From: a virus
Length of the DNA stretch: 24,775 nucleotides
Strand: one strand, 5' to 3'
Virus record (IMG/VR): IMGVR_UViG_3300005589_000099
Location: 1-24,775 of that record
Shown: positions 6,011 through 24,751 of the stretch, piece after piece
How the letters are laid out: the number at the start of each line of letters is the position of its first letter
How positions within the stretch are numbered: the stretch's first letter is position 1
Program-made: the position numbers and the translations under genes
The notes under the pieces: generated by a model
The model's input: only the letters and a program-made list of their open reading frames with translations
Database searches by the model: none
What the model was told of the DNA's origin: nothing

Positions 6011-6226
6011 TTACTGAGGATTGGCTGAATCCATCTTACGCTGGAAGCGTTCACGCTCTTCAGGTGTCATGTTTCCGCCTTTGGCTTCGACTTCCTTTAC
6101 TTTCTCCAAGAACTCATCGCCTTCTTTCAGCCGGCGCTTTACATCTTCCACCCACAGCTTATGAGGCCGGCCCATTCGTTTGGCCAGCTCTTCCTGTTTC
6201 TCTATGGGAAGATCGAGTACGTTCAT
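6011..6226 (-). CDS. Small charged protein of unknown function downstream of MuF
   Basis: A 71-residue, strongly charged and probably all-helical protein (EKQEELAKRMGRPHKLWVEDVKRR at the start, TPEERERFQRKMD near the end). Its ATG overlaps the TGA of the MuF gene (ATGA), so it is translationally coupled to it and is the last gene before the tandem terminators. I do not recognise a family. Two readings are possible: an ordinary small head-cluster protein, or an immunity/chaperone partner for the toxin domain at the MuF C-terminus, since immunity genes typically follow polymorphic toxins. Nothing in the sequence decides between these. Confidence 0.6.
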   Translation of the reverse strand: MNVLDLPIEKQEELAKRMGRPHKLWVEDVKRRLKEGDEFLEKVKEVEAKGGNMTPEERERFQRKMDSANPQ

Positions 6227-7890
6227 ATTTCAGTCAGCCTGAAGGTTAAAATTCCATCAGAATCAATATAGCGCGATTCGACGAAGAAGTCAGTAGGGGA
6301 GGTATGCACAACCTCTCTCTCTTGTTCATTGAATACGCTGTTCCATCCAACTTTCTTACCGGTTCGGCCATGAATAACTATCCGGTGATTCCCGCTGAAT
6401 ACTTCCTGATCATAACTGCTGCTGGTAAAGGCGGGATAGGTGACCACATTACCGACTTCATGCTGTTCAAGAATTTTGGCCGGCAGAGAAGTCCGGCGAT
6501 ATGAAATGCCTTCATAAGATGGCATCTTGCTTAACGCAGAACGGAGTACTTCAGCAGAATCATCAACCGCTTGAGGGTTTTGAACGGAAAGCCCCCACTG
6601 CCTATTATTGAGTTCTTCATAGCCGGTTGCAGTGTAAGCACGAACAGCCACACCTTCAGCCTGGGTCATCCCATATTCACCCATGAGATTCTTTATTCTC
6701 GGATTCTCAAGGGATCCTGCAAACTTCCGGTACCGCTCTTCACCCAACCAGTTTGTGAGTGATGCCTGCTGCTTTGATGGCGCAATCTTTACATTCTCAG
6801 CCTGTTTGGTTTTGGGTGCTGCAGTATAGGCTTTCGAGAAGGCTTTCGGTTCCTTTTTCCGCATTTCTGCCAAAGTCAGAGGCTTAAAGTTTTTGTCCAG
6901 CTGCAACTGCTTGAACTTTTCAGCAGTGAGGCCGCCATTGCGAAGAAGGTTCCCCCGGGCAGGCCCCAATACATCATCTTGAAACTCTGCATCCTGCAGC
7001 TTCATCCATTCGTAATACCCAAGCTTTGCGTCAACAGGGCCATTCTTACTTGCCCTGGTAGCATCCTTGTCTAGGTAGTTGTATTTGTCCGGAAGCTTGG
7101 CCATCGTGGTAGAACGGCAGTTTATGTGTATCGGTGGCACCGGGCCTTTACCGATATCATAAACTTCCTGATCCAATGACCGGCAAATGGTGCTTGTTCT
7201 GCCATCCAGCGTTGAAAGCCAGGTGTATTGCTTGATGCCGTTCTTTATCCATGTCTGCATCCGAGCGGTAGAAGCCGAGTGCTGAACGGCAGTCCTTACA
7301 ATGGCTTTTGCATGACGATCGACAACGGCCAGTGCGCCATCGGTATACCGGTTTGCCTTGGTACCGCGAATATTCCGCAATATCTCAAAGTTGGTCTGCC
7401 CCTCAAAGAAACCCTGACGAATAATGCCGGAAAGCATTTTTACATCAGAGGCCATCCAATCCTTGATGAACGGCTTCAGAAGCTTTCCGCCATCTGCACC
7501 CCGTACGGAGAGAGGATTATTAAAAACCGCTGACCTGACTTGTTCCGGAGAAGGAATAACCGATTCGAAAAGCTCTGATGCAATGGCGTTTGCCAGGTTC
7601 TCAGCCTCAAACTCTGATTCGTACTGTGCAATATCAACCAGGTGGCCGGCTAGCTCATCATAGTACTCATCCATGATTCCGATCAGGGTGTTTTCAACGC
7701 TCTTGAGCAGTTTCTCAAGCCGGGATCGGCTGAAATCGGTCAGATCATCAGCCGTTAAACGCTCGCGTAAATCCAGATCGATGCGCTTCAAGAACGCCGT
7801 GAACTGGTTTGCCTGGTTAGATTTTAAGCCTTCCAGATAAATCTGGTTCTTAACAGTTGAGTTAAGCAGCTTCGCGGCCGTCATCGTCAT
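6223..7890 (-). CDS. MuF-type minor capsid protein with C-terminal ADP-ribosyltransferase domain
   Basis: A 555-residue two-part protein. The N-terminal half holds the Phage Mu gpF domain, with TYTWLSTLDGRTS-type sequence at about 222-233, C236 and the HINCR motif at 255-259. MuF proteins sit on the portal and can be ejected with the DNA. Residues about 405-555 match the R-S-E class of ADP-ribosyltransferases: the Arg motif SYRRTS (R465/R466), the STS-type strand TYPAFTSSSYD (484-494) and the bi-glutamate motif NEQEREV (E524-R-E526). All three catalytic motifs look intact, so it could modify a host protein upon injection or lysis. The linker at about 300-380 is rich in Lys/Ala. It overlaps the portal gene by 29 bases and is followed by a coupled 71-aa gene. 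The target is unknown. Confidence 0.85.
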   Translation of the reverse strand: MTMTAAKLLNSTVKNQIYLEGLKSNQANQFTAFLKRIDLDLRERLTADDLTDFSRSRLEKLLKSVENTLIGIMDEYYDELAGHLVDIAQYESEFEAENLANAIASELFESVIPSPEQVRSAVFNNPLSVRGADGGKLLKPFIKDWMASDVKMLSGIIRQGFFEGQTNFEILRNIRGTKANRYTDGALAVVDRHAKAIVRTAVQHSASTARMQTWIKNGIKQYTWLSTLDGRTSTICRSLDQEVYDIGKGPVPPIHINCRSTTMAKLPDKYNYLDKDATRASKNGPVDAKLGYYEWMKLQDAEFQDDVLGPARGNLLRNGGLTAEKFKQLQLDKNFKPLTLAEMRKKEPKAFSKAYTAAPKTKQAENVKIAPSKQQASLTNWLGEERYRKFAGSLENPRIKNLMGEYGMTQAEGVAVRAYTATGYEELNNRQWGLSVQNPQAVDDSAEVLRSALSKMPSYEGISYRRTSLPAKILEQHEVGNVVTYPAFTSSSYDQEVFSGNHRIVIHGRTGKKVGWNSVFNEQEREVVHTSPTDFFVESRYIDSDGILTFRLTEI

Positions 7891-22062: not shown

Positions 22063-22080
22063 TATAACTTGCGTGTTATA
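22063..22080. promoter_or_regulatory. Inverted repeat before the TA-like operon (candidate operator)
   Basis: TATAAC-TTGCGT-GTTATA has perfect 6-bp arms and ends one base before the toxin ATG at 22081. Palindromes at this place are common antitoxin-binding operators for autoregulation in type II toxin-antitoxin operons. No standard -35/-10 pair is clear; a TATAAC within the repeat could serve as a -10. Confidence 0.55.
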
Positions 22081-22515
22081 ATGATTGAAATTAGACTCCA
22101 CGACCACGCTAAAGATGACATTAAAAGGCTATTTGCCGATAAGGAGTCTAAGTGGATTGCAGGTTATGCCAGCTTTTTGGTGAAAGAGCTCAGGACTAAC
22201 AAGGATCTTCAGGATCAATTATTGGTTCATGATTCGTTAGTTGAATTGTCAGAAAATGGCGTTGCCTCAATCAGTATACAGAAGTGGATTTCGCAATTTA
22301 ACGGAAGGCCAGGTCGTGATTTATGGCGAATTAAGCCGAGAAATAATGCTGGTAATCAAATGCCATTTAGAATGATTTTTGCTTACAGGATGCCATATGG
22401 TGGTTTTGATGCAGAAATATGGGTTTTGGCAGTTTTGAAAAGAAGTGAATTTAATTATGAGGATGAAAATCCTTACACTAAAAGGATTGTGAGTGATTAT
22501 GAACAGCTTGATTGA
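22081..22515 (+). CDS. RelE/HigB-like toxin of a putative TA pair
   Basis: The frame opens with TTG at 22069, but the ATG at 22081 is the better start (144 residues); neither has a good ribosome site. The C-terminal half has the fold pattern of RelE/HigB (Gp49-type) toxins: GRDLWRIKPRNNAG, then MPFRMIFAYRM, EIWVLAVLKRSEF, and basic residues Arg/Lys in each block. It is followed, with a 23-base overlap, by an XRE antitoxin-like gene, the toxin-first order of higBA. Such toxins are ribosome-dependent mRNA nucleases. It is larger than usual (about 90-120), because of an N-terminal helical region of about 60 residues. The family call is moderately sure; toxic activity is inferred. Confidence 0.6.
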   Translation: MIEIRLHDHAKDDIKRLFADKESKWIAGYASFLVKELRTNKDLQDQLLVHDSLVELSENGVASISIQKWISQFNGRPGRDLWRIKPRNNAGNQMPFRMIFAYRMPYGGFDAEIWVLAVLKRSEFNYEDENPYTKRIVSDYEQLD

Positions 22516-22909
22516 AACAAATCGTTTTTACAGGCCAGATAATTCAGGTAGTCAGACCACAAGCAATGCCAAGCTTTTTAAGTTTCCAGCTATTCAATAT
22601 CAAGATGATATAGATAGTTTTTTTGCTCAATTTGAGGATGATCCGGATTTTCAAGCGGGTGCAAAGGCAGCTGGCAATGATATTGCGAATGCTCTATATG
22701 GAGAGGATAGCGCCAGCTTGAGTGCTTTAAGATTAAGAGCTGGTTTAACTCAGACTGAATTGGCTAGTTTGATAGGTATTCATCAGCCTGCGCTTGCAAG
22801 ACTTGAGTCAAAAGAGCCGGGAGACCCTAAACTAAGTACTTTGAAGAAGCTCTCTGAAGCGCTTGGAAAGCCTTTAGATGTTGTTGCTAACTGCTTTGAC
22901 ATGGATTGA
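22493..22909 (+). CDS. XRE-family antitoxin (HigA-like)
   Basis: A 138-residue protein. The GTG at 22493 has an AAAGGA ribosome site six bases upstream, so it is a better start than the ATG at 22499. An N-terminal region (about 1-65), rich in Asp/Ser, may neutralise the toxin. Residues about 77-130 are a helix-turn-helix: ALRLRAGLTQTELASLIGIH, then QPALARLESKEPGDPKLSTL, with the KLSEALGKPLDVV end typical of XRE antitoxins. It overlaps the toxin end, so the two are translationally coupled. It presumably binds the TATAAC-N6-GTTATA repeat upstream. Confidence 0.75.
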   Translation: MIMNSLIETNRFYRPDNSGSQTTSNAKLFKFPAIQYQDDIDSFFAQFEDDPDFQAGAKAAGNDIANALYGEDSASLSALRLRAGLTQTELASLIGIHQPALARLESKEPGDPKLSTLKKLSEALGKPLDVVANCFDMD

Positions 22910-22911
22910 TT

Positions 22912-23319
22912 ATGAAACACAATATCCGTTTTCATGGGATTTTTTGCGACGATATAAGGCAAGAAATAGGAAACAAGGTTACGCTTGTCGGGTGTTATGG
23001 TGATGAGCTTTATGTTCCAGATTTTCCGGCTCATATTCATAAGCTGTGCGTTCATTTTATTCTAACGTCAATTGATGAGCGTTCTGACCAAGATCTTGAT
23101 GTGTCTGTTATGACGTTCATAAATTCAGATAAAGGCCCTCAGGTACGTTTTAAAATAAAGTCTGGTACGGATATGAATGGCGGGTTTGAGATTCATAACT
23201 TAAACGTTAAAGAAGAAAATACGATAGTGCTCAAGGCTGTTATTGATGGCAAAGAGTATTTCGGAGGAAGGGTTATTATAAAAAAACCACCAAAGGACCC
23301 CCAAGAAGACACAAACTAA
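22912..23319 (+). CDS. Uncharacterised third gene of the TA-like operon
   Basis: A 135-residue protein; the TGA of the antitoxin and this ATG (22912) are two bases apart, with GGA eight bases ahead. The sequence is IRFHGIFCDDIRQEIGNKVTL, VGCYGDELYVPDFPAHIHKL, then beta strands (VHFILTSID, VSVMTFINSD) and GGRVIIKKPPKD at the end. From memory this resembles a DUF6941-like group of small beta proteins; no function is known to me. It is tightly linked to the TA-like pair and precedes a terminator, so the three genes form one unit. It is either a component of the TA system or an unrelated cargo gene. Confidence 0.6.
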   Translation: MKHNIRFHGIFCDDIRQEIGNKVTLVGCYGDELYVPDFPAHIHKLCVHFILTSIDERSDQDLDVSVMTFINSDKGPQVRFKIKSGTDMNGGFEIHNLNVKEENTIVLKAVIDGKEYFGGRVIIKKPPKDPQEDTN

Positions 23320-23340
23320 CCCGCCCCGAGCGGGTTTTTT
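23318..23340 (+). terminator. Intrinsic terminator after the TA-like operon
   Basis: AACCCGC-CCCGA-GCGGGTT is a perfect 7-bp stem-loop followed by a run of T. It begins at the stop codon of the third gene, ends the plus-strand operon and isolates it from the 245-aa/PIN unit. Confidence 0.92.
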
Positions 23341-23407: not shown

Positions 23408-23436
23408 TTAAGCCGTTACGTGCTTAAGCTTATAAT
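23408..23436 (+). promoter_or_regulatory. Promoter and inverted repeat for the 245-aa/PIN unit
   Basis: A perfect -10 TATAAT (23431-23436) stands 17 bases after TTAAGC (23408-23413), a weak -35. TTAAGC-N8-GCTTAA (23408-23413 and 23422-23427) is an inverted repeat spanning -35 and spacer, so a bound protein would cover the promoter. It is a candidate for autoregulation by the 245-aa protein, as is usual in toxin-antitoxin units. Confidence 0.6.
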
Positions 23437-23475
23437 TGAACTATCATTTAACTAAATACAAATGAAGATTAGATC

Positions 23476-24213
23476 ATGGACACCAAAAAAGACTGCTTTT
23501 CCCTAAGAATACGGGAGTTTACAAAAACAGGCATATCTATGAGCACGCTGGCTGAGTATATGAAAGACTTTGCCAACCTGCTTGGTGAAACTGAACACGT
23601 CCATTTTAAAAGTCTTACCAGTGGTTCTGCAGTACTGAATGCTGTTACAGACAACAAGCAACAAGATGAAAAAATCAGATTAAAGCTTGTTTCTGTTACT
23701 CGGGGAAATGCCTGCGATAACGACATGAAGGCATATCATGCTCTCAATAGTCGGCTCAGAAAAGATAACGCTACCGCTGAATTAAAATTTGGTAAAAGTA
23801 AGCTGATCAATTTCCCTGGCAAGAAAGAGCCAATTTATCCGGATATTGGCCCAATACTGGAAAGCACAGAACTTGAAGGCGAACTTATTCGCGTTGGCGG
23901 AAAAGATGAGTCTATTCATATGTTACTACTGGATAATAATGGAATTCAGCAAAAGCTAAGCACCAAGGATAAACAGTTAGCTATTGATATGGCTAAGCAC
24001 TTATTCACAAAAATCACGGTCAAAGGCCAGGGTTCCTGGACTCGAACGGAAGAAAAAGGCTGGGTACTAAATGATTTAAAAATATCTGAATTTGCTCCGG
24101 TTGAAGAAACAAGTTTTGCTGAACTAGTTATGAAACTCCAATCTATTGAAGGTACCGGATGGTCTGATATGGATGATCCAATCACGGAAGCTCTCAAAAT
24201 TAGAGGGAATTAA
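23476..24213 (+). CDS. Uncharacterised partner of a PIN-domain protein
   Basis: A 245-residue protein of no family I can name. The N-terminal part (SLRIREFTKTGISMSTLAEYMKDFANLL) is followed by HVHFKSLTSGSAVLNAV. The middle has EGELIRVGGKDESIHMLLLDNNG and the C-terminal part KHLFTKITVKGQGSWTRTEEKGW, which look like small beta barrels or sheets. It ends DDPITEALKIRGN. No helix-turn-helix or membrane segment is obvious. The gene ends one base before the TTG start of the PIN gene and shares its ribosome-site region, so the two are co-expressed. I infer that it partners (perhaps antagonises) the nuclease. The ribosome site (GAAGAT) is weak. Confidence 0.65.
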   Translation: MDTKKDCFSLRIREFTKTGISMSTLAEYMKDFANLLGETEHVHFKSLTSGSAVLNAVTDNKQQDEKIRLKLVSVTRGNACDNDMKAYHALNSRLRKDNATAELKFGKSKLINFPGKKEPIYPDIGPILESTELEGELIRVGGKDESIHMLLLDNNGIQQKLSTKDKQLAIDMAKHLFTKITVKGQGSWTRTEEKGWVLNDLKISEFAPVEETSFAELVMKLQSIEGTGWSDMDDPITEALKIRGN

Positions 24214-24214
24214 T

Positions 24215-24751
24215 TTGAAAGTTATTATTGATACAAGTGTTCTTTCAATACTGTTTAACCAGAATGCCAAACCACCAATAGATAAAGAAACTAAAAAGCC
24301 ACTGGAGCATTTTAAGGAGCGGGTGAACAATTTAATTCAAACACTGAGCAAGGAAAAAGCCCAGGTAATAATACCCTCACCCGTACTGACTGAGATATTG
24401 ATCCCGGCAACTGTAGGCCAGAGAGAAACAATTGAAACGCTTTCAAAGTCACCTTTCAAAATCACCGGATTTGACCATAGAGCATCGATTGAGTGCTCGA
24501 TTATGCTAAGGAGATTCTTTTCAGAATCTAAAAACAGAAAGGAGATGACAAGTAACTTTAACAAGCAGAAGGTTAAATTCGATTATCAAATTTTTTCTAT
24601 CGGTCTTGTAGAGCAAGTTGAAGCGATATATTCCGATGACAAAGATATAAGAAAACTTGGAAAAAAATTTAATATTCCAGTTATTGGATCCAATGACCTT
24701 GAGGTAAGCCTCTCTGAGAAACAAATAAAAATGGAATTTCCACCAAATTAA
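24215..24751 (+). CDS. PIN-domain ribonuclease
   Basis: The start is TTG at 24215, with AGAGGG seven bases before it; the open frame begins earlier but inside the previous gene. The 178-residue protein has the four acidic positions of PIN domains: D6 in VIIDTSVL, E60 in VLTEILIP, D123 in KFDYQIFSIG and D141/D142 in YSDDKDI. The fold of the second half (QVEAIYSDDKDIRKLGKKF, then IPVIGSND) also fits. PIN proteins are metal-dependent single-strand ribonucleases, and many are VapC-type toxins. It is longer than a typical VapC (about 130), with an insertion at about 65-115. Because it directly follows an unknown 245-aa protein, it may be the effector of a new two-gene unit. Confidence 0.82.
   Translation: MKVIIDTSVLSILFNQNAKPPIDKETKKPLEHFKERVNNLIQTLSKEKAQVIIPSPVLTEILIPATVGQRETIETLSKSPFKITGFDHRASIECSIMLRRFFSESKNRKEMTSNFNKQKVKFDYQIFSIGLVEQVEAIYSDDKDIRKLGKKFNIPVIGSNDLEVSLSEKQIKMEFPPN

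Follow-up and report, generated by a model that had tools for sequence, protein, structure and literature searches.

Two adjacent genes near the right end of a 24775-base IMG/VR virus fragment (this whole stretch is called the window here) raise the question of whether they form a single functional system and, if so, what that system does. The original prediction, made from the letters of the DNA, saw in them a self-contained unit of a 245-aa protein and a PIN nuclease, with the layout of a toxin-antitoxin or phage-defence module. The unit consists of the following features:

23318..23336, both strands: bidirectional intrinsic terminator, AACCCGCCCCGAGCGGGTT and then TTTT, G+C-rich and strong, which parts the unit from the DUF6941 gene.
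23408..23436, plus strand: putative weak promoter (TTAAGC, 17 nt, TATAAT) with an inverted repeat, from reading the sequence.
23476..24213, plus strand: partner gene, 245 aa, ATG start; member of phrog_19868; alpha/beta domain at about residues 1-113, OB fold at about 127-211, helical tail.
24215..24751, plus strand: gene of the predicted PIN-domain nuclease, 178 aa, TTG start; member of phrog_21691; D6, E60, E93, D123 and D142 conserved.

Both open reading frames have the positions and lengths first read for them, and the gap of 1 base is also right, the TTG of the PIN gene lying one base past the stop codon of the partner gene. The terminator said to precede the pair is the bidirectional one listed above. 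Regarding the promoter with its overlapping inverted repeat, the elements themselves are present: TATAAT at 23431-23436 is a perfect -10 box, and the repeat TTAAGC-N8-GCTTAA has arms of 6 bp each at 23408-23413 and 23422-23427. The promoter is nevertheless weak, because its -35 element (TTAAGC, 23408-23413, 17-nt spacer) agrees with the consensus at 3 of 6 positions and the promoter scanner did not list 23408..23436. With arms of 6 bp, the repeat at 23408-23427 is not clearly beyond chance and is by itself no strong evidence.

The placement of the unit at the accessory end of a prophage is backed by the gene content, since HTH regulators, one of them CI-like, and a HigB/HigA-like pair lie just to its left. 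Neither an integrase nor an attachment site was found in the window, and therefore the term prophage end rests on gene content; the 24775 bases contain no tRNA gene. The overlapping genes at 22069-22909 encode a 148-aa protein, which lacks a Pfam match and by eye resembles toxins of the HigB/Gp49 type, and an XRE-type HTH protein of 138 aa; they have the look of a common toxin-antitoxin pair of the HigBA type. Between them and the terminator, at 22906-23319, a 137-aa DUF6941 protein is encoded. At 6223-7890 on the minus strand there is a 555-aa head-morphogenesis-like protein, whose C-terminal motifs YRR, TSSS and EQERE suggest, by eye only, an ADP-ribosyltransferase.

What kinds of protein does the pair encode? 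Neither window protein received a name from Pfam, NCBIfam or PADLOC. The window PIN protein itself had no Pfam match, but 25 of the 38 members of its family matched the Pfam PIN domain (PF01850), and its placement in the PIN superfamily is thus sound. Its AlphaFold (AF2) model, with a pLDDT of 90, matches VapC structures with an E value of 4e-5 and TMt of 0.6-0.7. Among 81 distinct homologues D6, D123 and D142 are invariant and E60 is found in 80; E93, K121 and Q125 are conserved too. The catalytic acidic residues are thus kept, as had been proposed, and the protein is also larger than a VapC (178 aa against about 132 aa in a typical one). As modelled, the protein encoded at 24215-24751 has the PIN fold together with the acidic active-site set of a nuclease. 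A direct tblastn search of phages with it gave no match, although the adjacent gene of phage Ostro is a homologue at the profile level. In two loci (L125 and L126) we observed a PIN branch without part of the stretch from strand 1 to the next helix, which keeps the first active-site acid and is accompanied by a diverged partner.

The partner had been described as having no recognisable antitoxin DNA-binding domain. This is borne out by the absence of Pfam, NCBIfam and PADLOC matches, and in the partner and its relatives we found no RHH, AbrB or Phd domain and a single stray HTH match below threshold. The protein is less opaque than the original prediction held, however, because its model contains an OB fold. 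The AlphaFold model has a pLDDT of 89 and a pTM of 0.66, and the latter makes the arrangement of the domains less certain. Residues 127-211 gave VIA-align Z scores of about 9-10, with 70-85 residues aligned with Rim1, PriB and SSB, and Foldseek E values of about 1e-3; in the model they form an SSB/PriB-like OB fold. The N-terminal alpha/beta domain was not assigned to a known fold, the Foldseek and VIA-align lists being filled by matches of the OB domain. Most of the conserved residues belong to the N-terminal domain (L25, Y28, G37, H43, S51, D97) or to the OB domain (G135, G142, G184, W188, W196). The partner model also resembles longer viral proteins of 370-381 aa (BFVD A0A8S5QA00, E 6e-9; Q6NE06 of Leptospira phage LE1, E 1e-6), hinting that the alpha/beta-OB architecture may be wider than the PIN-linked partner family. 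DUF6575, a candidate taken from a viral structure match, was discarded, as it was rare and its matches, in long frames of two genomes, covered no more than about 70 residues.

Whether the two genes belong together was addressed by a linkage search seeded with the Pseudomonas phages Ostro and Pacha_bin_1 and with seven plasmid records. A single window protein as query found nothing in viral contigs and an alignment of 7 sequences was too diverse, but one of 3 sequences worked. Scans of bacterial and viral collections yielded 50 more loci carrying the partner, nearly all with a PIN frame directly downstream, and the bias of this partner-seeded scan is reduced by independent draws of genomes. In a draw of 398 Pseudomonadota genomes, both profiles, that of PIN and that of the partner, matched the same 9 (one of them the centre genome) and the genes were adjacent in all 9. 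In 395 further genomes, of the family of G001, the partner lay directly upstream of PIN at 7 of 7 PIN loci, and the same holds for 46 of 46 viral loci detected with the PIN profile. The PIN family was present in 18 of the 20 carrier genomes, as a single copy adjoining the partner, the exceptions being G007, which has a degraded second copy (L049), and G006 and G018, where contig breaks explain the matches. The rarity of adjacency elsewhere that would have counted against the unit was therefore not seen: the linkage is practically complete whichever gene the search starts from. One viral contig (IMGVR_UViG_2791355159_000004) carries two different copies of the pair about 12 kb apart (L133 and L136), perhaps in tandem prophages.

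The spacing between the genes is mostly -10 to 0 bases in 98 intact pairs, 81 of which are distinct. TTG is the start codon of PIN in 40 of the distinct pairs, 32 of these having no ATG or GTG alternative nearby, whereas this start occurs in 1 of the 81 partners. The protein distances of the two families are correlated over the distinct pairs (r=0.89, against a permutation maximum of 0.10), and both genes are under purifying selection, with dN/dS at about 0.02-0.16. These two measures indicate that the genes travel together and that both proteins are maintained. The unit is real and conserved, and very probably constitutes one functional system of mobile elements.

The broken copies bear on what the partner does to the nuclease. 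When the partner was intact, PIN was broken or missing in 5 of 48 evaluable loci (L003, L027, L029, L031, L032), whereas of the 52 loci in which PIN was intact none had a broken partner (Fisher p about 0.02, computed by hand); these counts are small and come partly from MAGs, and sequencing errors may contribute. The Ostro locus (L001) was left out of the broken cases because the profile call was false and its PIN is intact. PIN without its partner is seemingly not tolerated, which would be expected of a toxin held in check, and the asymmetry makes us lean towards a partner that restrains PIN. In Sinorhizobium K101 and C101 (L003) the PIN match is split in two, and in M103 it is continuous; the frameshift in the megaplasmids of the first two, with an intact gene in the related third, is possibly a natural and recent loss of PIN.

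A restrained toxin could simply be half of a type II-like addiction pair, which stabilises prophages and plasmids and has no anti-phage role. The order of the genes, partner first, and their translational coupling would suit such a pair, as would the VapC-like fold of the PIN model, the occurrence on plasmids and the fact that PIN was never found alone. An antitoxin of this kind is nevertheless difficult to recognise in a protein that has an OB fold instead of a DNA-binding domain and is bigger than the toxin, and neighbours with roles in restriction-modification, Lamassu or superinfection immunity suggest defence. We consider plain addiction quite unlikely.

The opposite possibility is that PIN is inactive alone and that the OB protein is no antitoxin but a required sensor or targeting subunit. 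This would resemble DS-5 of E. coli, a system from DefensePredictor that consists of a PIN ribonuclease and a second protein, and the pair may even belong to the same family. Defence by DS-5 depends on the second gene as well as on the catalytic residues of its PIN protein, and deletion of that gene is not toxic (PMC13092281); this absence of toxicity argues against plain toxin restraint in that system. The OB fold, as modelled, would suit a subunit that senses nucleic acids. The asymmetric decay, however, would be unexpected were PIN harmless alone, and we judge a DS-5-like working of the pair unlikely.

Regarding its occurrence, the pair is found in Pseudomonadota and Acidobacteriota, where temperate phages, plasmids and defence islands carry it, and it is sparse, being present in about 2% of the genomes in the Pseudomonadota draw of 398. 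In Pseudomonas phage Ostro it comes immediately after the CI repressor, within the block leading to the integrase, and at four loci (L127, L131, L133, L134) homologues of the CI-like or HTH genes of Ostro or the window lie upstream. In E. coli it was found in 32 of 5426 complete genomes, always in the chromosome, and the inspected copies lie in P22-like prophages beside the antirepressor gene (ant), two Arc-family (Arc/Mnt-type) genes and the tailspike gene; this occurrence also speaks for the likeness to DS-5. An E. coli pair of the WP_000749484 / WP_001263856 type lies at 9004-10262 of L152. Of the DNA queries tried against E. coli genomes, L138 alone has matches; the window, the Proteus pair and L127 have none. 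By our own positional comparison with P22, the immI-type region is where the E. coli prophage copies lie. The P22 gene for superinfection exclusion, sieA, forms a cluster with orf59a and mnt (PMC10883804).

Type IIG restriction enzymes of the MmeI/Eco57I type adjoin the pair at four loci (L009, L011, L013, L019), a Lamassu LmuB-like gene is near it at L044 and terminases at L041 and L053, and many copies have ordinary neighbours. The 141 neighbour genes matched 159 PADLOC families, against 40 for 136 control genes from carrier genomes, in a rough comparison that counts families and not independent systems and includes many ATPase cross-matches. The original prediction had suggested searching genomes for linkage of the two families and for their location in prophages or defence islands, and the pair is indeed located in prophages and next to defence genes. 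From this context and from the anatomy of the pair we infer a role in defence or as toxin-antitoxin. The closeness of the pair to CI and to the immunity region, seen in several prophages, would also agree with a phage RNA-processing pair, in which a PIN endoribonuclease and an RNA-binding OB cofactor take part in gene regulation or in the control of lysogeny. Such a function seems very improbable to us, given that the pair is also found on plasmids and beside defence genes and is as sparse as described.

The explanation that we prefer, and to which we give slightly better than even chances, is a mobile immunity module of two genes, in which the OB protein restrains the PIN RNase, licenses it, or both. 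Both proteins would be made in the lysogen or in the host of the plasmid, where the OB-fold partner would bind the PIN protein and keep it silent. The OB or the alpha/beta domain of the partner may then respond to a factor made or changed by an infecting phage, candidate triggers being single-stranded nucleic acid and a phage replication or SSB-like protein. The trigger would free or activate the PIN enzyme, which would cut an essential RNA (tRNA, rRNA or mRNA) and halt the infection at the expense of the cell. A small amount of co-translated nuclease, held by the partner, would fit the partner-first order, the overlapping frames and the frequent TTG start of PIN. A bolder and more specific version is that the pair represents a new immune class, apart from both VapBC and DS-5. 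Here the OB protein would sense single-stranded nucleic acid of the incoming phage, or one of its replication intermediates, and would release the bound PIN RNase; we put this forward tentatively, as a possible but rather doubtful reading.

Two phage protein families of unknown function thus become one well-defined and nearly obligate system that extends over two phyla, and the E. coli prophage copies near the immI region make it testable at once in laboratory strains. If the immunity module works as proposed, a PIN RNase under the control of a partner that has a nucleic-acid-binding fold would join the known modes by which prophages protect their hosts, and the OB-fold partner would be a candidate sensor.

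How does the pair compare with known systems? PHROGs v4 contains the partner in phrog_19868, its only match, and the PIN protein in phrog_21691, both with no function given. The PADLOC candidate PDC-S70 resembles the C-terminal part of PIN, but this weak match (E 4e-4) covers 34 residues only. A literature search on the PHROG names, the protein accessions and PIN plus OB defence returned nothing specific. The pair is consequently undescribed, as originally suggested, in the libraries searched (Pfam, NCBIfam, PADLOC, PHROGs), but DS-5 has the same outline (PMC13092281) and may be the same family. DS-5 is the nearest tested analogue, with which the pair shares the composition of two genes, one a PIN ribonuclease (predicted here), and the occurrence in E. 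coli. The difference, compared by description only, lies in the second protein, described in DS-5 with DUF5830 and an AcrIF4-like domain (PMC13092281) and here made of an alpha/beta domain and an OB fold. By hmmscan, DUF5830 was found neither in 45 members of the partner family at E 0.1 nor in 9 more at E 10, although the method of the DS-5 study was perhaps more sensitive, and AcrIF4 chains among the PDB sequences were not matched by the full or the N-terminal partner profile, in a comparison of profiles and not of folds. These sequence searches make identity with DS-5 less likely. VapBC shares with the pair the PIN fold with the VapC acidic set, the partner gene in first place and the tight coupling. 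Its antitoxin, however, is a small RHH, AbrB, HTH or Phd protein and not a 245-aa OB-fold partner, and the PIN proteins described here have 160-190 aa and are not recognised as VapC by NCBIfam. The absent DNA-binding antitoxin domain speaks against VapBC, as does the VapC equivalog NF047959, on which the window PIN scores 11.8 bits against a cut-off of 80. We therefore file the pair with the PIN-based two-gene systems, apart from VapBC.
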